This document shows, one piece after another, positions 3,083 through 20,370 of a DNA stretch of 20,779 bases. A model generated the notes under the pieces. The model had not been told where the DNA came from. It saw only the letters and a program-made list of their open reading frames with translations, and searched no databases. Numbering within the stretch: the stretch's first letter is position 1; each line of letters opens with the position of its first letter. The stretch comes from a virus. The stretch covers positions 1-20,779 of IMG/VR virus record IMGVR_UViG_3300049841_000106; one strand, 5' to 3'. A program made the position numbers and the translations under genes.

Positions 3083-3465
3083 GGCGCCTCATCGCCGCCT
3101 GCATGGCCCTCCTGCTGGCCGCCTGCGCAGCGGTGAGCTCGCCCCCGGCGCCTTCCGCGGTGCTGGTGACGGTGGCGTCGAGCCTGGGCTCGTTCGACGA
3201 GCAGGTCGGCCAGGCGGCTTTCGCCGGCCGCATCAGCGCCACCAAGGCCACCGCGCTGCTGGACGAGTCTGCGCGCATCCGGGCGCAGATGAACGACGCG
3301 CGTGCGCTGCTGCGCAGCTGCGTGCCCGACAAACCGTGCGAGGCCTTCGACACTTCGCTACGCGCGATCAACGACCGTCTGCTAGAGGCCCAGTGTCGCC
3401 GACGGCAAGCCGAGGCCAAGCTGCCCGAGGATGTCTGCAAGCTACCCGTGAGGACTGCATCATGA
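3079..3465 (+). CDS. Lipoprotein of the lysis cassette (spanin-like candidate)
   Basis: A 128-residue protein starting at GTG 3079. The N terminus is a lipoprotein signal: MRR, a hydrophobic stretch and the lipobox LAAC, with lipidated Cys near residue 15. The mature part is largely helical with a Ser/Pro-rich start and a few more cysteines (CVPDKPC, then CRRRQ and CKLP), which could form disulfides in the periplasm. A lipoprotein following holin and endolysin genes is the usual position of an outer-membrane spanin subunit (Rz1-like). However, no inner-membrane Rz partner is nested here, and the protein is longer than typical Rz1. The spanin role is therefore inference; the lipoprotein nature is directly visible. 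Confidence 0.75.
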   Translation: MRRLIAACMALLLAACAAVSSPPAPSAVLVTVASSLGSFDEQVGQAAFAGRISATKATALLDESARIRAQMNDARALLRSCVPDKPCEAFDTSLRAINDRLLEAQCRRRQAEAKLPEDVCKLPVRTAS

Positions 3466-6541: not shown

Positions 6542-8689
6542 TCATTCCTTCCGATAGCGGTACGTTTCAAAGCCCGCTGCGGACAGCGGGATGCCGGGCG
6601 CCCACGAGGGGCGGGTTGCCATCATCTCGCCGAGTGCCTCGGCTGAGAATTGGGAGTTGTCCTCGGTCTCGGTGAGCACCTCGTCGTGCACGGTGAGCAC
6701 GATGAGGTAGCCGCTGTCGTCGATGCGCTGCATCGGGTCGGCCAGCACGTCGCGCGCGAAGGCCTGGGTGCAGTTCTCCACCAACTTGCCGCCGTAGGTC
6801 TTGATCCGCTTCCACTGGCGCGTGTACTGGTCCACGCCCTGGTAGGTGATCTCGCCCGAGTCGCTCACCTCGGGGTGCAGGTAGCACAGGTAGCGGCCGC
6901 TGGGCAGGCGAATGCGCAGCCATGCAGCGTCGCGGCGGGCCGCCAGGTGCCGGCCGATGTTCACGACCTGGCCCGGGTTGGCGCACGCCTGGCGCACGCC
7001 GTCGGCTGCCGCGTTCCACAGGCTCACCACCGCGGGGTGCGCTTCGCGCCAGGAGGCCTTCAGGATCTCACAGGCTATGTACACCCTATCCGGCAGCCCG
7101 AACGTGCTCCTGCGCTGTTTCTTGACCCACGCGAGCATGCCCTGAGCACGATCGATAGCCTCGCGGCTGGCGCTGGCCCACACGCCCTCGGCCATGTCCT
7201 CCAGGTCCATGCGGTAGACAGCGGCGAAGGTCAGGAAGGCGGCCACGCCGCCCTCGTACCCGAGGCCGAGCTCCTGCACCTTGCCTATCTGGCGTTTCTG
7301 GCCGACCGCTTCCGACGGGTCGACGCCGAAGCTGCGCGCGTAGGCCAGCTTGTACAGGTCCGGGCCGGTGCCGGCGTCGTACTCCGCGAAGGCCTTCAGC
7401 TTCCAGCGCTCACCGGCGAGCCAGACCAGCCCGCGGCCTTCGATGTTGGCCAGGTCGGCCACGCACAGCTTGCGGCCCGGCGCGGCCACGATGCAGCCCC
7501 GCACGAGGTTGCTGGTCAGCTGCATCACGTCGTCGAAGACGTAGGTAGCGAACCCGCCCTTGACCGCGGCGACGCCCTGGCGCTCGTACTCGAGCACGAG
7601 CGCGTGCTTGGCCTCATCGCTCTTGGGCAGCGCCTCGAGCCCAAAGTGGTTGGCAATGTGCGCCTCGTCGGGGCGCGGCATGTTCTGCGGCTGGAAGATC
7701 CGCCCGGCCCAGCGCGCGGTGCGCTGCGCGCCGGCAAACTGCAGCGTGTTGCGCAGGCGCCCGTCGGCGCTGGTGGACTTCACCAGGGCCTTGAACTTGG
7801 CGGTGCTGGCCTTCGTCGCCTCCAGGCGCAGGCTCAGCAGCAGGCGCACGCCGTCGGGCAGGTTAGGGTCCTCGACGCGGCGGCGCAGGGTGTCGGCCTT
7901 CATGTCGGGCAGCGCCACGCCGTACTCGGCCAGGATGAACTTGAGCAGCTGGTCGCGCTTCGATGGCGAGCTCACCAGGCCGTCGGTGGCCTCGGCCGTT
8001 TCTTCTCGAAGGCGTTCCTGCTCCTCGCCCACCGCTTCAATGGAGGCTCGAGCGAAATCAAGGTCAACACAGAACCCGCGATCGTTAATGCGCTGGTCAA
8101 GGTGCCAGAGAGCAAGCTCAGGGTGACCCTCGCGATAGTTCCAGTGGGGCAGCAGCTCGTGGAGGTGTCGCATAGCGATGATGTCCTGCCGGCTGTACTC
8201 GAGGAATTCAGCCCACTCTGCGGGGTGCGTCTCACGTGTTGCCCTCCTGAGCTTCATGTTCTTCGGCCGAGGCTTGCAGAAGAGCTGGATCAGCTCTTTG
8301 CCCCGCTTGTCCTTGGCCACGTCGTTGGCCACGCCGAGCGCCTGGCCGACCTTCTCCAGCCCGCCGGGCAGGCCGTGCGCGAGCGCGAGCACCATGGTGT
8401 CGCGCCAGCGCTCGATGGGTACGTCGATGCCCCAGCAGTGACGCACGAGCGTGCGGTCAAAGGCGCTGTTGTGGGCGACGATCTGGACGTCTGGGTGCCG
8501 GAGCAACTGCGACAGCTCACCGTTGGGGCCGATGTCGCGCGTGCAGTCCTGCACCTCGGGGTCGCCCTCACCGATCGCCCACTGCGCGACCATGATCTCC
8601 GTGCTCTCGTGCGCGGCGTAGCGGTGCGTGCCCGCGCTGAACAGATCGCACTCGCTGAACGTTTCGGTGTCAAACCATAGGATCGTCAT
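6542..8689 (-). CDS. Family A DNA polymerase with 3'-5' exonuclease domain (T7-like)
   Basis: 715 residues, the usual size of a phage family A polymerase without a 5' nuclease domain. Exonuclease motifs: Asp7-Thr-Glu9 (Exo I), HNSAFD with Asp78 (Exo II), and Tyr165-x3-Asp169 (Exo III). Polymerase motifs: motif A DLANIEGR starting at Asp412, motif B in QIGKVQELGLGYEGG, and motif C VHDE with Asp669-Glu670. All catalytic acids are present, so it should be an active proofreading replicase that copies the phage genome. Motif A has Ala where most relatives have Ser (DxSxIE). Start ATG 8689-8687 has GAGG 14 bases upstream, so initiation may rely on coupling with an upstream small ORF. The gene is central to the leftward replication operon. 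Confidence 0.95.
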   Translation of the reverse strand: MTILWFDTETFSECDLFSAGTHRYAAHESTEIMVAQWAIGEGDPEVQDCTRDIGPNGELSQLLRHPDVQIVAHNSAFDRTLVRHCWGIDVPIERWRDTMVLALAHGLPGGLEKVGQALGVANDVAKDKRGKELIQLFCKPRPKNMKLRRATRETHPAEWAEFLEYSRQDIIAMRHLHELLPHWNYREGHPELALWHLDQRINDRGFCVDLDFARASIEAVGEEQERLREETAEATDGLVSSPSKRDQLLKFILAEYGVALPDMKADTLRRRVEDPNLPDGVRLLLSLRLEATKASTAKFKALVKSTSADGRLRNTLQFAGAQRTARWAGRIFQPQNMPRPDEAHIANHFGLEALPKSDEAKHALVLEYERQGVAAVKGGFATYVFDDVMQLTSNLVRGCIVAAPGRKLCVADLANIEGRGLVWLAGERWKLKAFAEYDAGTGPDLYKLAYARSFGVDPSEAVGQKRQIGKVQELGLGYEGGVAAFLTFAAVYRMDLEDMAEGVWASASREAIDRAQGMLAWVKKQRRSTFGLPDRVYIACEILKASWREAHPAVVSLWNAAADGVRQACANPGQVVNIGRHLAARRDAAWLRIRLPSGRYLCYLHPEVSDSGEITYQGVDQYTRQWKRIKTYGGKLVENCTQAFARDVLADPMQRIDDSGYLIVLTVHDEVLTETEDNSQFSAEALGEMMATRPSWAPGIPLSAAGFETYRYRKE

Positions 8690-11055: not shown

Positions 11056-11385
11056 TCAGGCCCCCACCTCGTCGATGAACTTCTCGACGATGGCCAGCGC
11101 GTCGCGGCGCTTCTCGGGCGCCAGGTCGCGCATGGTCTTCACGCCCATCTTCTCGCAGGCCGCCTGGCACTTGGCCGGGGCCTTCTGGGCGAGCCGGAAA
11201 ACGGCCTTCTGGAGCACCGCGTAGTCGAGCGGGCCCTCGGGTGCCGGCGCGGGCGTTTCAACGGCCTGGGCGGCCGTTTTGGCCGCTTCCTGGACGGCCG
11301 GCGCGGGCGGCCCGATGACCAGGGCGGCCACCCGGGTGAAGTCCGCGGGGTTGTGGATGGTCAGCGTAACGGTAATGGGAAACAT
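11056..11385 (-). CDS. Small phage protein of unknown function before the DUF2800 nuclease
   Basis: 109 residues from ATG 11385-11383. It has three parts: an N-terminal beta segment (MFPITVTLTIHNPADFTRVA), an Ala/Pro-rich linker (~residues 25-50), and a C-terminal helical region with LDYAVLQKAVFRLAQK and GVKTMRDLAPEKRRDAL. The last part resembles small phage proteins commonly encoded just before DUF2800 nucleases, whose role is unknown. It is one base from the nuclease gene and three bases after the preceding gene, so it is firmly in the operon. Confidence 0.75.
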   Translation of the reverse strand: MFPITVTLTIHNPADFTRVAALVIGPPAPAVQEAAKTAAQAVETPAPAPEGPLDYAVLQKAVFRLAQKAPAKCQAACEKMGVKTMRDLAPEKRRDALAIVEKFIDEVGA

Positions 11386-11676: not shown

Positions 11677-11994
11677 TCAGAAGGGGACGAAGTGGGTGGT
11701 GTCCGCGGGGCCTTCACCGCGCCAGGCGGCGGGCCCCACACGTTGCGCGCCGCGGTCGCCCTCGACGCGCACGGTGATGTAGTCGAGCTCCAGGTCCTTG
11801 GCCAGCTCGGCAACGATCGCGAGGATAGCGGGCCGCGGGAAGTTCTCCTCCGCGTCGCCCACGAAACAGATCACGTCACCGGGGCGCGGCCCGCGGCGGA
11901 CCTTGGCCACCTTGGCCAGGAACCGGTCGTGGAGCATCTGCGCCACGAGCATCGTGGCAACGTTCAGCCCGCTGATGTTGAGTTCGACGTTCAT
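11677..11994 (-). CDS. Small protein of unknown function, coupled to the hexapeptide-repeat gene
   Basis: 105 residues from ATG 11994-11992, which overlaps the stop of the hexapeptide gene (ATGA). A much longer in-frame ORF reaching 12636 is only an out-of-frame reading of the repeats. The protein starts MNVELNISGLNVATMLVAQM and has an alternating strand/helix pattern (PGDVICFVGDAEE, then AILAIVAELAKDLELDYITV). This could be a small alpha/beta fold, but no motif is diagnostic. No Shine-Dalgarno is visible, so translation probably depends on re-initiation from the upstream gene. Confidence 0.7.
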   Translation of the reverse strand: MNVELNISGLNVATMLVAQMLHDRFLAKVAKVRRGPRPGDVICFVGDAEENFPRPAILAIVAELAKDLELDYITVRVEGDRGAQRVGPAAWRGEGPADTTHFVPF

Positions 11995-12770
11995 GCCGCG
12001 TTTACAAAGTGGTCGGCGAGCAGCACCGCTGTGGCGTAAGCGTTGCCGTGCAACGTGTCGCCGTGCGTCTTCTCGACGGCAGCCAGGAACGCTTCGCGCG
12101 AGCCGGAGAAACAACCCGTCGAGTACCGCACGCCAAGCACAGCGTCGCTGTGCACCGTCAGGTACGCCAGGCGCGAACCAATGGGCCCGACGACAAAGAT
12201 ATCGGCGTTGCCGTCCACCCGCGCGCTGCCGGACACCTGCGCGTTGCCGTCCACCCGCGCGCTGCCGGACACCTGCGCGCTGCCGTCCACCTGCGCGCTG
12301 CCGGACACCTGCGCGCTGCCGTACACCTGCGCGCTGCCGGACACCTGCGCGCTGCCGTCCACCCGCGCGCTGTCGGACACCCGCGGGCTGCCGGACACCC
12401 ACGCATTGCCGGACACCCACGCATTGCCGTCCACCCACGCATTGCCGTCCACCCACGCATTGCCGTCCACCCGCGCGCTGCCGGACACCCGCGGGCTGCC
12501 GGACACCCACGCATTGCCGGACACCCGCGCATTGCCGGACACCCACGCATTGCCGTCCACCCACGCATTGCCGTCCACCCACGCATTGCCGTCCACCCGC
12601 GCATTGCCGGACACCCACGCATTGCCGTCCACCCACGCGTTGCCGTCGTGCGAAAGGTTGGCTTCTTTCTCGACGAGCCCACCAACGTCGCCGGCTTTGA
12701 CGGCGCCGAAGGCACGCAGCGCGTGGAGGCGAAAAAGGTGCTTGCAGGGCCGGAGTTCGTATTTCTTCAT
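11991..12770 (-). CDS. Hexapeptide-repeat beta-helix protein (phage YdcK-like type)
   Basis: 259 residues from ATG 12770-12768, coupled by ATGA to the gene upstream. The N-terminal cap (residues 1-41) contains LFRLHALRAFGAVKAGDVGG and ends EANLSH, typical of a widespread phage family. Next come exactly 25 six-residue repeats (42-191) of the form [D/S]G[N/S]A[W/R/Q]V, which should fold as a parallel beta-helix with three hexapeptides per turn. The C-terminal cap (192-259) has the conserved IFVVGPIGSRL, TGCFSGS and HGDT segments. Relatives are common in phage early regions but have no proven function. No transferase active site is apparent, so a structural or binding role is more likely than acyl transfer. 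The family is recognised with good confidence; the role is unknown. Confidence 0.85.
   Translation of the reverse strand: MKKYELRPCKHLFRLHALRAFGAVKAGDVGGLVEKEANLSHDGNAWVDGNAWVSGNARVDGNAWVDGNAWVDGNAWVSGNARVSGNAWVSGSPRVSGSARVDGNAWVDGNAWVDGNAWVSGNAWVSGSPRVSDSARVDGSAQVSGSAQVYGSAQVSGSAQVDGSAQVSGSARVDGNAQVSGSARVDGNADIFVVGPIGSRLAYLTVHSDAVLGVRYSTGCFSGSREAFLAAVEKTHGDTLHGNAYATAVLLADHFVNAA
12198..12647 (-). repeat. Tandem 18-bp coding repeats, 25 units
   Basis: 450 bp made of 25 in-frame 18-bp units coding for hexapeptides of the beta-helix protein. On the + strand the commonest units read CCGTCCACCCACGCATTG and close variants. Units fall into two blocks: mostly DGNAWV-type in the N-terminal half and mostly SGSAQV-type in the C-terminal half. 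Several multi-unit stretches are nearly identical at the DNA level (for example SGSPRV followed by an ARV unit, twice), indicating duplication by slippage or unequal recombination. Confidence 0.92.
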
Positions 12771-12979
12771 GGCAGTTTCTCGATGGTGGTCCAGGTGGTG
12801 GCGGTGCGCAGCGAGAGCACGTGCACCGCGGGGCTGTTGTCGTCGACCAGGATCAAGCACGGCACTTGCATGTGCACGTCCTTGATCTTCTCGACGGTGG
12901 TCGTCCAGGCCAGCGCGGTGCCGGTGATGAACGTGCGCGGCTGCGGCGCCGGGCGGTGGATGCAGGCAGTGACTTTCAT
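12767..12979 (-). CDS. Small protein of unknown function
   Basis: 70 residues from ATG 12979-12977, which lies two bases after the previous gene's stop; its own stop overlaps the hexapeptide gene start (ATGA). A longer in-frame ORF to 13111 would overlap the upstream gene heavily and is rejected. The protein reads MKVTACIHRPAPQPRTFITG, then a mixed strand region (VPCLILVDDNSPAVHVLSL) that looks like a small all-beta domain. Not recognised. Confidence 0.7.
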   Translation of the reverse strand: MKVTACIHRPAPQPRTFITGTALAWTTTVEKIKDVHMQVPCLILVDDNSPAVHVLSLRTATTWTTIEKLP

Positions 12980-14428: not shown

Positions 14429-16411
14429 ATGATGGCCGCCATCGACATCACCTCTATCGCGAGGGTCGACGCGCCCTCAGCGCTGCGCGAGCTGCGCGCC
14501 TGGCTGATCTGGAAGTACGAGCCGCACCAGAACCCAGGCGGCAAGCCTCGGAAGGTGCCGTACTACGTCAACCAGCAGCGCCGCCAGGGTGTGCAGGGCA
14601 GCGCCGAGGACCGTGGCCTGATGGTCACCTTCGGCGAGGCTCGAGCGGCCGCCGCCGCGCGGCCAGGGTTCGAGGGCGTGGGCCTGGCGTTGATGCCCGA
14701 GAACGACATCGTGGCGCTGGACTTCGACGACTGCGTCGACGACCAGGGTGTTATCGAGCAGTGGGTGGTCGACCTGGTCGGCCCCTACACCTACGCTGAG
14801 TTCTCCCCCTCGGGCCACGGCGTGCGCGCCTTCTTCCGCGGCCAGCTGGGCGACCGCAAGTCCAAGGGCTTCGAGGTCTTCAGCGCCAAGGGCTACGTCA
14901 CCTTCACCGGCCGCCCGCTGCCGATCGTGGCCACGATGGGCAACGAGGACACGGTGGCCGACCTGCCCGACGAGGTGCTCAACTTCGTGCGCGAGCGCTT
15001 CCGGCGCGACCTGGACGGCCCAGGCCCCGCGCCGGCAGCCTACCAGGAAGAGCCGCTGGGCCTGCCCGCGGCCACCATCCAGCGCTGCCTCGACGTGCTG
15101 CCCACGGACCTGGAGTACGACGCCTGGCTGCAGGTCGGCATGGCGCTGCACCATGAGACCCAGGGCGAGGGGTTCGACACCTGGGACGCCTGGTCCGCCA
15201 GCTCACTCAAGTACACCTCCCGTGAGTTCGGCCTTGAGCGCTGGCGCAGCTTCGGCAAGAGCCACCAGGGGCCCACGGTCACCGCGCGCACGCTCGTCAT
15301 GATGGCCAACGAGCACGGGGCCGGCGTCAGCGTCACGCAAGCCGCGGACGCCAGCGACTTCGAACCCGTGGAGCCTGAGCTAGGGGCCGACGGCAAACCC
15401 AAGATCCGCTTCCAGGTTGAGCCCGCCCACGTCTTCGGCGCGCGGCCGCCGCCGGCCTGGATCGTCCAAGGTGTGGTGCCCCAGGCGGGCCTGATGGTCT
15501 GCTACGGGGCGCCTGGCAGCGGGAAGTCCTTCCTGGTGCTCGACCTGGTGGCCGCCATCGCCACCGGCCGCCAGTGGCGCGGCAGGAGGACCCAGGCGGG
15601 GCGCGTGGTCTATGTCGCTGCCGAGGGTGCGGGGGGCTTCCGAAATCGCCTCCACGCCCTCGCCAAGGGCCTGGACGCCCCGCTGGAGGACATTCCCATA
15701 GGCGTCATCGCCGACGCACCCAACCTGATGCTGCTGGCCGACGCCAAGGACCTGATCGCTGCGGTCGAGGCCGCGGGCGGCGCCGACGTCATCGTGATCG
15801 ACACGCTCGCCCAGGTCACGCCAGGCGCGGACGAGAACAGCGGCCAGGACATGGGCAAGGCCTTGGGCCACTGCAAGCGGCTGCACGCCGCCACGGGGGC
15901 CTTGGTGCTGCTGGTGCACCACTCGGGCAAGGACGCCGCGCGCGGTGCGCGTGGGTGGTCAGGCATCAACGGCGCCGAGGATGCGGAGCTCGAGATCACG
16001 AAGCTGCCCAACGGTGCGCGCGTGGCCAAGGTGACGAAACAGAAGGACGGGGAGGATGGGCTGCAGTTCGGGTTCAAGCTGGAGGTGGTGCCGCTGGGCC
16101 ACGACAAGCACGGTGAGCCGATCACCTCGTGCGTGGTGGTGGCCGAGGAGGTGCCCTTCGCTACCTTGGCCAGGCCGGTGGGCGTGGTGGAGCGGGTGGT
16201 CATCGAGGTCATCCAGGAGATCGCCAAGGTGCAGACCAAGGGCATCGAGGTGGCAGCGGTGATGGCCGAGGTGGTCCGGCTGCTGCCGGTGCCGGAGGAA
16301 GGCAAGCGCGATCGGCGCAAGTTCCTGGCCAAGCGGGCCATCGAGACGCTGAGCACGGGAGATGACGCGCCGTACTGGCTGCGCGATGACGGCACTTTGG
16401 AGGTGGGCTGA
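14429..16411 (+). CDS. Bifunctional primase-helicase (AEP prim-pol, PriCT and RecA-like AAA domains)
   Basis: A 660-residue replication initiator/primase. The N-terminal domain (~15-205) is an archaeo-eukaryotic primase/prim-pol fold, with the catalytic acids in LDFDD (98-101) and the SPSGHG motif (126-131) that contacts nucleotide. Residues ~215-290 (LDVLPTDLEYDAWLQVGMAL, then a Trp-rich helical part) match a PriCT-type linker. Residues ~340-540 are a RecA-like ATPase with Walker A GAPGSGKS (360-367) and Walker B VIVIDTLAQ (Asp458), as in RepA-type hexameric helicases. The last ~70 residues look like a winged helix that could bind an origin. Alternative starts are ATG 14429 and 14432; neither has a strong Shine-Dalgarno. 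It unwinds and primes DNA for the family A polymerase. The repeat field right downstream is its likely target. Confidence 0.92.
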   Translation: MMAAIDITSIARVDAPSALRELRAWLIWKYEPHQNPGGKPRKVPYYVNQQRRQGVQGSAEDRGLMVTFGEARAAAAARPGFEGVGLALMPENDIVALDFDDCVDDQGVIEQWVVDLVGPYTYAEFSPSGHGVRAFFRGQLGDRKSKGFEVFSAKGYVTFTGRPLPIVATMGNEDTVADLPDEVLNFVRERFRRDLDGPGPAPAAYQEEPLGLPAATIQRCLDVLPTDLEYDAWLQVGMALHHETQGEGFDTWDAWSASSLKYTSREFGLERWRSFGKSHQGPTVTARTLVMMANEHGAGVSVTQAADASDFEPVEPELGADGKPKIRFQVEPAHVFGARPPPAWIVQGVVPQAGLMVCYGAPGSGKSFLVLDLVAAIATGRQWRGRRTQAGRVVYVAAEGAGGFRNRLHALAKGLDAPLEDIPIGVIADAPNLMLLADAKDLIAAVEAAGGADVIVIDTLAQVTPGADENSGQDMGKALGHCKRLHAATGALVLLVHHSGKDAARGARGWSGINGAEDAELEITKLPNGARVAKVTKQKDGEDGLQFGFKLEVVPLGHDKHGEPITSCVVVAEEVPFATLARPVGVVERVVIEVIQEIAKVQTKGIEVAAVMAEVVRLLPVPEEGKRDRRKFLAKRAIETLSTGDDAPYWLRDDGTLEVG

Positions 16412-16413
16412 GC

Positions 16414-16611
16414 ATGCAAATAGCTGCAAACTTGTTGCTTTTGGCGTGGTTGTTGTCTGCTGTTTATCGCTGGCACGCTGGCACACGGTGGCACGCGTGC
16501 CACTTTGTGCCGTGTGCCACTGGCACGACTGGCACGCGCCCCTTTAGGGGCGTGCCGGTGTGCCACTCCCGAGTGCCATCAACTTGCAGTTTTTCGCAGA
16601 CGGCTGGGTGA
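16414..16611 (+). CDS. Possible 65-residue protein overlapping the hexamer repeat field
   Basis: ATG 16414 follows the strong GGAGGTGG at the end of the primase-helicase gene, and the stop TGA overlaps the next gene's ATG (TGATG), so translational coupling is possible. The N-terminal ~17 residues are hydrophobic (MQIAANLLLLAWLLSAVYRW), like a membrane anchor or signal. The remainder (RWHAGTRWHACHFVPCATGT...) is dictated by the TGGCAC/GTGCCA repeats. Since repeat spacing is not a multiple of three, the DNA and not the protein seems to be under selection. It may be a real short membrane protein or a translated leader. No family is recognised. Confidence 0.35.
   Translation: MQIAANLLLLAWLLSAVYRWHAGTRWHACHFVPCATGTTGTRPFRGVPVCHSRVPSTCSFSQTAG
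16471..16578. repeat. Dense TGGCAC/GTGCC hexamer field, candidate replication origin or control site
   Basis: In 108 bp there are five TGGCAC (16471, 16479, 16489, 16521, 16530) and six inverted GTGCC[A/G] (16497, 16507, 16514, 16552, 16560, 16573). They include the perfect 14-bp palindrome 16489-16502, GTGCCACTGGCAC at 16514-16526, and a hairpin GCCCC-TTTA-GGGGC at 16538-16551. The preceding 16412-16470 is T-rich compared with the surrounding DNA. Iterons beside an A+T-richer tract, directly after a primase-helicase gene, are what a phage or plasmid origin looks like. The function is inferred. Confidence 0.7.
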
Positions 16612-16871
16612 TGGAGCTGACTTTGACGGCGCCCGCAAAAAACCGCAGACTGACAGTAAACGAGGCCGGGCACCTCATCGGCGAGAGCCACCCGCGGGCG
16701 GTGCTGACCGACCACGAGGTGGACCTGCTGCTGGAGCTGCTGGCCGAAGGATTGAGCCAGGCCCGGGTGGCCCTGGCCATGGAGGTGTCGCGGCGCACGG
16801 TGCGCGACATCGCCAGCGGGCGGACGCGGGCCCAGATCCCCGCGCGATTAATCGTGAGACGAAAGGATTGA
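16611..16871 (+). CDS. Small HTH DNA-binding protein
   Basis: 86 residues from ATG 16611; an in-frame GTG at 16560 lies within the repeats and is less likely. The N terminus is MELTLTAPAKNRRLTVNEAG. After GESHPRAVLTDHEVDLLLEL comes a resolvase/Hin-type helix-turn-helix, roughly residues 38-70 (LLAEGLSQARVALAMEVSRR, then TVRDIASGRTR). The ESHPRAxLTxxEV lead-in is typical of a family of small phage and HNH-associated DNA-binding modules. The basic tail (PARLIVRRKD) would help bind DNA. Being next to the hexamer field, it is a candidate to bind it or to regulate late genes; this is inference. Confidence 0.75.
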   Translation: MELTLTAPAKNRRLTVNEAGHLIGESHPRAVLTDHEVDLLLELLAEGLSQARVALAMEVSRRTVRDIASGRTRAQIPARLIVRRKD

Positions 16872-16872
16872 G

Positions 16873-17112
16873 ATGAGAGAACCACGTGTGATGACGGACG
16901 AAGCTATCGAGGCCCTGTGGGCCAACAGGCCCGCCACCCTGGCGCCAACGTGGAAGAGGCCCGCCACCCTGGCGCCAACGTGGAAGAGGCCCGCCACCCT
17001 GGCGCCAACGTGGAAGAGGCCCGCCACCCTGGCGCCAACGTGGAAGCCTAAGAAGCGCAGCTGGGCCGCCTGGGTGCGGCGCCTGCTGCGGGCGTGGGGT
17101 CTCTCGCGATGA
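16873..17112 (+). CDS. Protein with four identical decapeptide repeats
   Basis: 79 residues from ATG 16873, six bases after AAAGGA. The short N terminus is MREPRVMTDEAIEALWAN. Residues 19-58 are four exact copies of RPATLAPTWK, then a basic Trp-rich amphipathic helix (PKKRSWAAWVRRLLRAWGLS) ends the protein. The repeat is rich in Pro, Thr and Trp and is probably an extended linker or binding peptide; the C-terminal helix could contact membrane or nucleic acid. The stop overlaps the next start (ATGA). No family is recognised. Confidence 0.7.
   Translation: MREPRVMTDEAIEALWANRPATLAPTWKRPATLAPTWKRPATLAPTWKRPATLAPTWKPKKRSWAAWVRRLLRAWGLSR
16927..17046 (+). repeat. Perfect 30-bp tandem repeat, four copies
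   Basis: Four identical 30-bp units (16927-16956, 16957-16986, 16987-17016, 17017-17046) beginning AGGCCCGCCACCCTGGCGCC. They are in frame with the 79-residue gene (10 codons per unit). Each holds the 8-bp palindrome TGGCGCCA. Absence of any base difference, even at third codon positions, implies very recent expansion or strong homogenisation. Confidence 0.95.
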
Positions 17113-17306: not shown

Positions 17307-17491
17307 CCGAACGAGAATACATCGACGCGACGAATCTAGCTAAGGTGCGCGCAGCCAAGGTGATTGCGCACGACCTCTTGCCAATGTCGCCAGAAGACGA
17401 AGCTGATCAGGTTGCTGCGTTGAGTGCTTTGCGGCGCATCGAAGCACGACTTGAGCACCGCATGGCGGATGCCCCGCCAAGCCTCGGCTAA
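17303..17491 (+). CDS. Small helical protein of unknown function
   Basis: 62 residues from ATG 17303, overlapping the previous stop by ATGA and ending TAA 17489-17491, eleven bases before the small terminase start. It is acidic and predicted all-helical (MTEREYIDATNLAKVRAAKV, then PMSPEDEADQVAALSALRRI). No motif is recognised. Codon usage is slightly less G+C-rich than in neighbours. Confidence 0.65.
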   Translation: MTEREYIDATNLAKVRAAKVIAHDLLPMSPEDEADQVAALSALRRIEARLEHRMADAPPSLG

Positions 17492-17501
17492 GCTGCGCAC
17501 C

Positions 17502-18065
17502 ATGGACGGTCGAAAGCTTGAGCTCTTCCTTGCGGCGTTGCGCCGTAGGCCCGTGGTGGCCTACGCGTGCGAGGCTGCCCTCGTGAGCCGCACCGACGCG
17601 TACCGCACGCGCCGCGAGAACCCCGAGGTGGCCAAGGCCTGGGACGATGCGCTGGAGGATGGTATCGACCGCGCAGAGGCCGAGGCCTTCCGCCGTGGGT
17701 CCGAGGGCTTTAACGAGCCCGTGATCCACCAGGGGCAGGTCGCGGTGCTCACTGAGCCCGTGCTCGACGACGAGGGCAACGTCCAGCTCAACGAGAAGGG
17801 TCAAATGCGGATGCGCCCGGTGCTCGACGACAAGGGCAACACCATTCCGCTGTCGGTGAAGAAGTTCAGCGATACCCTGCTCATCGCGGTGCTCAAGGCC
17901 CGGCGCGCCGCGTACCGTGTCGAGCGCACCGAGCTCACCAACCCTGACGGCTCGCTAACACCGCAGGACGACACCGCCCGCGCGGCACGCCTGGCTGCGA
18001 TCCTCGAGGCAGCCGAGCGCCGCGCGCAGGCGGCTGACAACGAGCCAGGCGCCGAGTTCGCGTGA
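17502..18065 (+). CDS. terS: Terminase small subunit
   Basis: 187 residues from ATG 17502, the first Met of the conserved part; the longer frame from 17424 overlaps the upstream gene. Residues ~5-45 (LELFLAALRRRPVVAYACEA, ALVSRTDAYRTR) form a helix-turn-helix of the phage TerS type that recognises the packaging site. The central part oligomerises, and the Ala-rich helical C terminus (ARAARLAAILEAAERRAQAA) would contact the large subunit. The stop overlaps the large-subunit GTG by four bases. Location directly before TerL is the strongest evidence. No Shine-Dalgarno is visible at the start. Confidence 0.88.
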   Translation: MDGRKLELFLAALRRRPVVAYACEAALVSRTDAYRTRRENPEVAKAWDDALEDGIDRAEAEAFRRGSEGFNEPVIHQGQVAVLTEPVLDDEGNVQLNEKGQMRMRPVLDDKGNTIPLSVKKFSDTLLIAVLKARRAAYRVERTELTNPDGSLTPQDDTARAARLAAILEAAERRAQAADNEPGAEFA

Positions 18066-19711
18066 CCCCGGACAAGGTCCGGGCCCTGTGGCCCTACCTG
18101 ACGGACGAGGAGCGCCGCGAGCTCGATGAGCTGCTCGCGCAGGACTTCGCCGCGGTGCCTTGGCGCTCACTGCCAGGCCCGCAGACGATGGCCCGCCTGT
18201 CGACCGCGGACATCGTGGGCTACGGTGGCGCGGCCGGCGGCGGCAAGACTGACCTGGTGGCGGGGCTGGCCATCACCGAGCACGAGCGCGTGCTCATCGT
18301 TCGCCGCGAGAAGGCGCAGACCGAGGGCATCGTTCAGCGCATCACCGAGATCCTCGGGCGCACCGATGGCTACTCGTCGCAGAAGGGCGCGTGGCGCATC
18401 GACCACCGCCTGCTCGAGTTCGCAGGCTTGGACAACCCAGGCGATGAGCGCCGCTGGCAGGGCCGCCCACACGACCTGAAGGCCTTCGACGAGGTGACCG
18501 AGATGCGCGAGCAGCAGGTCCGCTTCGTGATGGGCTGGACGCGTTCGAACAAGCCTGGCCAGCGCACGCGCGTGCTGATGACGTTCAACCCGCCCACTAC
18601 CAACGATGGGCGCTGGGTGATCGACTTCTTCGCGCCATGGCTGGACCCGAAGCATCCGCTCTACCCCACCGCGCCAGGTGCGATACGCTATGCGGCGATG
18701 ATCCCTGACGGGCGCGGGGGCTCGAAGGACACGTGGCTCGATCGTGGCGACGAGTTCATCCTGGTGAACGGCAAACCCTTCTACGACTTCGACTCGAGCG
18801 TGCAGCAACCAGAGGACGTCATCACGCCGAAGTCGCGCACGTTCATCCCGGCGCGGCTGACCGACAACCCCTACTACATGGCGACGGGCTACATGAGCAC
18901 ACTGCAATCACTACCCGAGCCCTTGCGCAGCCAGATGCTTTACGGCGACTTCCAGGCCGGCATCGAAGACGACGCATGGCAGCTGATCCCGACCGCGTGG
19001 GTCGACGCCGCAGTGGCGCGCTGGAAGCCGCGCTCGCCCAAGGGCGAGATGCTAAACAAGGGCGTGGACGTTGCGCGCGGTGGCAAGGACGACACCATGT
19101 TCATTGGGCGCCACCGCGACGAGCAGGCAGGGCACTCCTACTGGTTTGACGAGCCCGAGGTGCACCCTGGCACGAGCACGCCCAACGGCTCGAGCGTGGC
19201 GGGCCTGGTGATCGCTTCACGCACGCACGACTCGCCGGTGGTGATCGACGTGATCGGTGTGGGCGCGAGCCCCTTCGACATGCTCAACACGCTGGGCGTG
19301 CAGATCATCGGCATGAACGTGAGCGAGGCGGCCAACTCGACCGACAAGTCAGGCATGCTGCGGTTCAGCAACATGCGCAGCCAGCTGGCCTGGAAGCTGC
19401 GCGAACTGTTCGATCCTGCTAACGACACAGGTGTTGCGATCCCGCCCAACTCGCGCCTGCGCAAGGAGCTCACCACGCCGCGCTGGTGGCCGCAGGGGCG
19501 TGTCGTGCACATCGAGACGCGCGACGAGATCATCAAGCGCCTGGGCTGGTCGCCCGACATGTTCACCGCAGTGATGTTCGCGGCGATGGACGTGCCGAAG
19601 GTCAAGGTGCTGCAGATCGCCAGCATGCGCGAGGACGTCATCAACTACGACCCGATGGCCCACATGCGCGGCGCGATGCCCGACGCGCGCGGCCACGACC
19701 CGTTCCGATGA
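18062..19711 (+). CDS. terL: Terminase large subunit (ATPase and nuclease)
   Basis: A 549-residue protein starting at GTG 18062. The N-terminal ATPase has Walker A GAAGGGKT (56-63) and Walker B AFDE (141-144), with catalytic Glu144. The C-terminal RNase H-like nuclease has Asp336 in GVDVARGGKDD, Asp396 in VVIDVIGVGA and Asp499 in SPDMFTAV. All key residues are present. TerL cuts concatemeric DNA and drives it through the portal into the prohead. Gene order TerS-TerL, then portal about 1 kb later, is standard, although here a regulator, a tRNA and three small ORFs sit between TerL and portal. The stop overlaps the next start by ATGA. Confidence 0.95.
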   Translation: MTPDKVRALWPYLTDEERRELDELLAQDFAAVPWRSLPGPQTMARLSTADIVGYGGAAGGGKTDLVAGLAITEHERVLIVRREKAQTEGIVQRITEILGRTDGYSSQKGAWRIDHRLLEFAGLDNPGDERRWQGRPHDLKAFDEVTEMREQQVRFVMGWTRSNKPGQRTRVLMTFNPPTTNDGRWVIDFFAPWLDPKHPLYPTAPGAIRYAAMIPDGRGGSKDTWLDRGDEFILVNGKPFYDFDSSVQQPEDVITPKSRTFIPARLTDNPYYMATGYMSTLQSLPEPLRSQMLYGDFQAGIEDDAWQLIPTAWVDAAVARWKPRSPKGEMLNKGVDVARGGKDDTMFIGRHRDEQAGHSYWFDEPEVHPGTSTPNGSSVAGLVIASRTHDSPVVIDVIGVGASPFDMLNTLGVQIIGMNVSEAANSTDKSGMLRFSNMRSQLAWKLRELFDPANDTGVAIPPNSRLRKELTTPRWWPQGRVVHIETRDEIIKRLGWSPDMFTAVMFAAMDVPKVKVLQIASMREDVINYDPMAHMRGAMPDARGHDPFR

Positions 19712-20162: not shown

Positions 20163-20370
20163 ACGTTGCACGTTCTGCGGCCGCGAGGGGCACCTTGCGC
20201 ACGCCTGCAAACGTCGGCTATACTGGCCGCATGGTCACTCCACCTCCGAACACCCTCTGGGTGTAATGTCAGCCCGGTCAGACGGCCGCCCTCGGAAGGC
20301 GGAGGTCGCTGGTTCGAATCCAGCCACCCAGACCAAGAGCCACAGGTTTGCAGGTACCGATTACGAGTAA
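20137..20370 (+). CDS. Zinc-knuckle (CCHC) ORF reading through the tRNA gene
   Basis: GTG 20137 opens a 77-residue frame. Residues 11-24, CTFCGREGHLAHAC, are a perfect C-x2-C-x4-H-x4-C zinc knuckle followed by basic KRR, as in small nucleic-acid binding phage proteins. From about residue 41 the frame runs through the tRNA gene (20257-20335), and this part is not expected to be conserved protein. The knuckle is therefore convincing, but the natural C terminus was probably different: the gene may have been cut by acquisition of the tRNA, or the extension may simply be tolerated. No Shine-Dalgarno is visible, and translation may be coupled to the preceding gene, which it overlaps by 26 bases. 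Confidence 0.5.
   Translation: MNRSSSSDKRCTFCGREGHLAHACKRRLYWPHGHSTSEHPLGVMSARSDGRPRKAEVAGSNPATQTKSHRFAGTDYE
20195..20224 (+). promoter_or_regulatory. Sigma70-type promoter for the tRNA
   Basis: TTGCGC (20195-20200), an 18-base spacer and TATACT (20219-20224). Transcription would start near 20231, about 26 bases before the mature tRNA end, leaving a short 5' leader for RNase P. It lies within the zinc-knuckle ORF. Confidence 0.6.
20257..20335 (+). tRNA. tRNA-Pro (anticodon CGG), unusual
   Basis: A complete cloverleaf can be drawn. The 7-bp acceptor stem is CTGGGTG/CACCCAG, with discriminator A332 and encoded CCA (20333-20335). The D-stem is TGTC/GACG (one T-G pair) with a GG-containing loop. 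The anticodon stem is CCGCC/GGCGG with loop CTCGGAA (20291-20297), giving anticodon CGG at 20293-20295. The variable loop is AGGTC, and the T-arm is GCTGG-TTCGAAT-CCAGC. C1-G72, A73, G35 and G36 fit bacterial proline identity. Two oddities: three bases, not two, separate acceptor and D-stem, and position 37 is A where tRNA-Pro normally has G. It would read CCG codons, which are common in G+C-rich phage genes. Confidence 0.85.

Follow-up and report, generated by a model that had tools for sequence, protein, structure and literature searches.

A hexamer array behind a phage primase-helicase gene is a probable replication origin whose repeat word follows the C-terminal winged helix of the helicase

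The window analysed here is a stretch of 20,779 nt of viral DNA (positions 1-20,779 of IMG/VR record IMGVR_UViG_3300049841_000106). It contains a primase-helicase gene in whose product Pfam recognizes AAA_25 (1.2e-43) and PriCT_2 (9.6e-19), and whose PDB matches relate the N-terminus to the NrS-1-type enzymes (AEP-type PrimPol; 6a9w/6k9a) and the helicase to RSF1010 RepA (1g8y, 1e-10). An array of short inverted repeats lies downstream of the stop codon of this gene (16411) and ahead of the gene for an 86-residue HTH protein, whose ATG is probably at 16611. The features of the region are as follows.

14429-16411, plus strand: putative initiator gene, 660 aa, with NrS-1-like PrimPol, PriCT_2, RSF1010-RepA-type (AAA_25) hexameric helicase and C-terminal winged helix (Pfam and PDB matches)
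16124-16408, plus strand: C-terminal domain, residues 566-660, predicted winged helix and proposed hexamer reader (AlphaFold2; covaries with the hexamer)
16316-16351, plus strand: predicted recognition helix H3, RKFLAKRAIETL, residues 630-641, with F632/L633 as the hexamer-tracking positions in relatives
16412-16470, no strand: A+T-richer tract (54% A+T; window 33%), candidate unwinding element (base composition)
16414-16420, plus strand: ATGCAAA element outside the array, common to phages with different hexamers
16425-16430, plus strand: second TGCAAA element (sequence match)
16471-16476, plus strand: hexamer site TGGCAC (exact match)
16479-16484, plus strand: hexamer site TGGCAC (exact match)
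16489-16494, plus strand: hexamer site TGGCAC, left half of the 14-bp palindrome (exact match)
16497-16502, minus strand: hexamer site, right half of the 14-bp palindrome (exact match)
16507-16511, minus strand: imperfect site GTGCC (window sequence)
16514-16519, minus strand: hexamer site (exact match)
16521-16526, plus strand: hexamer site TGGCAC (exact match)
16530-16535, plus strand: hexamer site TGGCAC (exact match)
16537-16552, plus strand: core hairpin CGCCCC-TTTA-GGGGCG, flanked by inverted hexamers (in relatives the loop is conserved and the stem covaries)
16552-16556, minus strand: imperfect site GTGCC (window sequence)
16560-16565, minus strand: hexamer site (exact match)
16573-16578, minus strand: hexamer site (exact match)
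16611-16871, plus strand: gene for the 86-residue HTH protein, excluded as reader (locus comparison)

Three further features of the window were observed: a long protein of repeated GNAWVDGNAWVSGNAQV-type units, beta-helix-like, encoded on the minus strand at 11991-12860 within the early gene block; identical tandem copies of ca. 39 bp at 16930-17047, in a 79-residue ORF (RPATLAPTWK repeats) just past the HTH gene; and a tRNA-Pro(CGG) gene at 20257-20335, past the gene for the terminase large subunit.

The hexamer array is confirmed. The preliminary description of this DNA had counted eleven hexamers in 108 bp, and we found eleven GTGCC cores at 16471-16578, corresponding to nine exact copies of TGGCAC/GTGCCA plus the two imperfect sites. 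Both orientations occur, as described, but the packing is less regular than the reported 7-10 bp: the start-to-start distances of the exact sites are 8, 10, 8, 17, 7, 9, 30 and 13 bp. In third-order Markov copies of the window no hexamer exceeded 4-5 copies per 120 bp; TGGCAC is not enriched window-wide (18 observed versus 19.5 expected), and only its clustering is unusual. The other structures described earlier were also found, namely the perfect 14-bp palindrome (TGGCACGCGTGCCA, 16489-16502; 16 bp counting its flanks), the hairpin beside the hexamers and the adjoining A+T-richer tract. Repeats in a protein do not explain the hexamers of the window, as had been argued from their spacing: the array lies between genes. 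Similarity searches with the DNA of the region retrieved nothing relevant among GenBank phages.

Searches with the window protein, with an alignment and with its relatives yielded 154 distinct loci with a readable helicase end and downstream DNA. A hexamer array significantly above shuffles was present in 117 of them, starting at a median of 29 bp past the helicase stop and, in L005 and L015, extending into the end of the helicase frame; the remaining 37 loci gave no array behind the helicase in this test. No array accompanies the related proteins of the BPP-1-like phage (L013) and of Caulobacter phage RW (L014). Arrays of at least six copies occurred at 111 of the 154 helicase 3' ends versus 11 of 1357 other 700-bp windows from the same loci, and those with both orientations at 97 of 154 versus 1 of 1357. 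The expectation that the hexamers are conserved in relatives was therefore borne out for the array, which occupies the same place in the 117 loci, and usually not for the literal word, of which there are 43; a word that varies while the position of the array stays is what a coevolving initiator-origin pair predicts.

Although the word changes, the plan of these regions is conserved: inverted hexamer clusters, usually with a TTTA/TATA hairpin, and TGCAAA outside. A hairpin with a 4-nt loop lies between inverted hexamer copies in 82 of the 117 arrays, the left-hand spacer measuring 3 nt and the right-hand one 1 nt in 30 of the 82, and hairpins of this type reach 0.64 per kb in the array region versus 0.005 elsewhere, about a hundredfold difference. 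Among 23 distinct TTTA/TATA/TATG stem-loops the first four pairs are complementary in all, with CG, GC, TA and AT types occurring; these hairpins have a conserved loop on a covarying stem. TGCAAA is found in the upstream flank of 16 of the 43 different-motif representatives, versus about one expected. In the CGGGAC/TGTCCC group (L085, L088, L089, L091) the loop reads TAAA on the helicase strand, and the hairpin appears inverted.

The array plan recurs behind the helicase in cultured phages as well, namely GTATAA (eight copies, with CCCTTTAGGG) in Roseobacter CRP-821, GGGACA in Salicola CGphi29, GGTACA in Idiomarinaceae 1N2-2 and GCGTGA in Rhizobium 16-3; Burkholderia BcepGomr has the hairpin CCCCTTTAGGGG. 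The window and seven longer relatives each hold a single strong cluster of their own hexamer, and two of the seven also show a weak second cluster of four hexamers, so that there is usually one array per genome. The weaker cluster of G007 (45663-45779) comprises four TGCAAC hexamers 20 kb from its main array.

Circular phage-plasmids likewise carry arrays, behind stand-alone RepA-type helicases. Plasmid unnamed4 of Methylobacterium currus, which carries a ParA gene, has eight CGCAAC copies with CCCTATAGGG and no further initiator in its annotation; this favours an origin over a packaging or operator site. Since terminase genes lie at 17424-19711 in the window, the array might be thought a packaging (pac/cos) site recognized by the small subunit of terminase, whose gene lies 0.85 kb downstream; this we consider scarcely credible, because most array loci have no terminase nearby, the M. 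currus plasmid being one such case, and because in the 30.3-kb circle of CRP-821 the array (3307-3393) and the terminase small subunit gene (29787-30260) are ca. 3.3 kb apart.

Folded as single-stranded DNA, the array of the window forms two adjacent stem-loops, at 16471-16519 and 16521-16565, far better than shuffles (z = -5.0), and the arrays of L019, L031, L062 and L233 do likewise. Together with the core hairpin, its conserved TTTA/TATA loop and its covarying stem pairs, this would also fit a structured element that is mainly a stem-loop, be it an RNA element or an origin such as those proposed for pRN1 and phage BIP-1, that of pRN1 being a stem-loop 3' of the replication gene (PMC4234260); the hexamers would then be stem arms only. 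We regard this as unlikely: a pure stem needs no identical hexamer in every arm, the hairpin spacers are often unequal, and the identity of the hexamer follows the recognition helix of the helicase (see below). An Rfam search of the region gave no fitting family, with weak matches far below gathering scores, and a search for an intrinsic terminator in the region found none. Structure and protein binding may both matter.

Single long hairpins were observed at the same place in the array-less relatives L010 (6505-6560), L007, L011 and L012, that of L010 being GGATTTATTTTTGG..CCAAAATAAATCC (z -3.6); they are perhaps another type of origin. A CCCCCTTTAGGGGG hairpin lies ca. 80 bp past the stop (3517) of the RepA-type helicase in Polaromonas pPNAP03 (L241), with no hexamer array.

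Two proteins encoded at the locus could be thought to read the hexamers. The 86-residue HTH protein is small and its gene adjoins the array, and the preliminary description had named it as a possible reader; the comparison of loci contradicts this, and we give it almost no credence. Its gene lies within 1.5 kb of the array in only 19 of 117 loci; L053 and L141 carry CGTTGC and GAGTAC arrays, respectively, although their HTH proteins are virtually identical; the HTH recognition region is common to L019 (TGAAGG) and L113 (TGCAAC); and L013 has the HTH gene and no array.

The other candidate is the primase-helicase itself, described earlier as ending with a winged-helix-like C terminus. An AlphaFold2 model of residues 566-660, built from an alignment from which the row of L014 was left out, agrees with confidence (mean pLDDT 87.5), placing three helices (H1-H2-H3) before a two-stranded wing, and thus supports a winged helix as the predicted fold class. 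Foldseek comparison of the domain with the PDB gave no significant match, the best ranks among the weak ones being mostly winged-helix domains, and therefore we claim no specific structural family; a profile sequence search of the PDB with the same domain found nothing.

Pairwise comparison of all array loci for helicase-core identity, C-terminal-domain identity and hexamer similarity indicates that the word tracks the C-terminal domain. In partial Mantel tests on the two well-sampled clades, hexamer similarity correlated with the C-terminal domain after removal of the core (r 0.56, N 41, and r 0.73, N 40; p 0.0005), and the core added nothing in these clades once the C-terminal domain had been removed. 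Several near-identical helicases with different words have exchanged their C-terminal domain and array as one cassette. In L184 and L198, for example, the alignment breaks off at -289/-271 before the stop and resumes at +123/+153; between these conserved flanks both parts are replaced, the C-terminal domains being only 20% identical and the arrays built from, respectively, GCTTCC and TGGATC. The same exchange is seen between L139 and L147, L019 and L107, and L023 and L147. These are not one-sided recombinations, in which everything downstream is replaced, since both flanks are conserved.

Within the domain, the association narrows to two residues of the predicted helix H3, which could be assigned in 81 of the 117 loci. 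The pair Q-H goes with GCACC in the clade of L020 and independently in L173, from the clade of L062; Q-R, Q-M and Q-T go with GCAAC; x-N with GAAG in both clades; D-N with TGGATC; T-K with AGTCGG; and T-L with AGTAGG. The window has F-L and TGGCAC, and L005, with QFLAQRA in the helix, also has TGGCAC although its domain is 23% identical. L125 (RQHAKRAL, TGCACC) and L126 (RQRARRAL, GCAACA) have 96% identical cores; from one to the other, H and K of the helix each become R, and GCACC becomes GCAAC in the word. Among 39 disjoint pairs of loci, those identical at the two positions shared their hexamer in 16 of 16 cases and those differing in 8 of 23 (Fisher 2.5e-5), although the p-values of this comparison are optimistic because the two positions were picked after inspection of the alignment. 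For cross-clade pairs (core <50%) the corresponding figures are 29 of 29 versus 312 of 1624, with few independent contrasts behind the 29 pairs. Cassette exchange, partial Mantel tests, the H3 association and the winged-helix model thus support the earlier proposal that the C terminus of the primase-helicase reads the repeats.

Coevolution of the array with the winged helix would, however, also be expected of an operator, because an operator for autoregulation of the helicase would do likewise; the primase-helicase, or another phage protein that would coevolve with the array equally well, could in this case control downstream transcription and not replication. The array does lie between two same-strand genes and contains palindromes. 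We nevertheless hold such a role to be very unlikely, given that the array is 3' and not 5' of the helicase gene, that the downstream genes vary widely among array-bearing loci, that a search of the region found no sigma-70-like promoter at the array, and that 8-12 dispersed inverted sites with a conserved hairpin would be unusual for an operator.

Several known systems resemble this arrangement in part. SaPI Rep and SCCmec Cch2 are self-loading initiator helicases that bind, through their C-terminal domain, short iterons directly downstream of their own gene (PMC7581432). Here too short iterons directly follow the helicase gene, and a C-terminal reader domain is proposed from covariation, cassette exchange and helix association; the SaPI and SCCmec helicases are, however, AAA+ enzymes (DUF927/D5-like), whereas here a PrimPol is joined to a RecA-fold helicase of the RSF1010-RepA type, and 8-12 hexamers surround a conserved TTTA/TATA hairpin. 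The alpha protein of P4 combines primase, helicase and a repeat-reading C-terminal winged helix (PMC4234260). The window protein likewise appears to hold all three on one polypeptide, but with an AEP-type primase instead of the TOPRIM-type of P4 alpha. The helicase of P4 alpha belongs to SF3, and P4 uses two repeat regions (ori and crr), in contrast to the SF4-type helicase and the usually single array per genome found here.

The helicase domain of the window protein shares homology with RepA of RSF1010, and the oriV of RSF1010 has iterons and hairpins near the origin, analogous to the present layout. In RSF1010, however, the RepA helicase, the RepB' primase and the iteron binder RepC are separate proteins, whereas here primase, helicase and proposed reader domain share a single polypeptide; the RSF1010 repeats are three 20-bp direct iterons, as opposed to 6-bp words in both orientations. 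For pRN1 and Bordetella phage BIP-1, a stem-loop origin was proposed 3' of a gene for a prim-pol/helicase/winged-helix protein, with a large stem-loop and no origin iterons reported (PMC4234260). The window also has a large stem-loop 3' of such a gene, but combines hexamer iterons with a RepA-type helicase, as opposed to an SF3 helicase without iterons; the BPP-1-like locus L013 is among those lacking a hexamer array by our test. The present system would work like the origins of SaPI, SCCmec and P4, but it is not a member of these families because of its PrimPol and RSF1010-RepA-type helicase. New with respect to the SaPI/SCCmec and pRN1/BIP-1 precedents are the RepA-type helicase, the joint presence of iterons and hairpin, and a specificity part swapped as a cassette. 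The open-access literature yielded these SaPI/SCCmec and pRN1 precedents and no description of this class of array, in line with the earlier remark that motif and layout are not those of a described origin.

Taken together, these comparisons of sequence make it very probable that 16412-16578 is a phage replication origin whose hexamers are read by the primase-helicase's own C-terminal winged helix. GC and AT skew are confounded by the switch of the transcription strand: in some of four relatives of 44-46 kb the array is near a local extremum (in G008, array at 11281 and GC maximum at 11750), where the strand also switches, and three circular records show no turn at the array.

From this arrangement we infer how replication might start at the array. 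The primase-helicase would bind the TGGCAC hexamers behind its own gene through the winged helix, with H3 making the main base contacts, and at the inverted clusters helicase rings would be loaded onto double-stranded DNA facing opposite ways. Opening driven by ATP would begin in the flanking A+T-richer TGCAAA tract, the N-terminal PrimPol would then prime the strand so exposed, perhaps at the TTTA-loop hairpin or next to it, and extension would fall to the family A DNA polymerase that the phage itself encodes (6542-8689).

On balance, we favour, with some reserve, the broader view that the winged helix and the downstream hexamer array of these loci make up a two-part specificity cassette, exchanged by phages as a unit, and so define a large and hitherto undescribed class of phage origins, with a few H3 residues setting the word by a readable code (Q-H/GCACC, Q-R/M/T/GCAAC, x-N/GAAG, D-N/TGGATC and F-L/TGGCAC).

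The origins of most phages are not known and as a rule escape similarity searches. The loci described here provide a search rule, a hexamer of whatever sequence repeated around a TTTA/TATA hairpin just behind a PrimPol/RepA-type helicase, which yields candidate origins in CRP-821, CGphi29, 1N2-2, 16-3 and phage-plasmids. They also suggest a replication module whose specificity is exchanged independently of its engine, and the natural domain swaps make initiator-origin specificity directly testable. If the code holds, origin words would be predictable from the protein, and cassette exchange could set compatibility among co-infecting phages or phage-plasmids.
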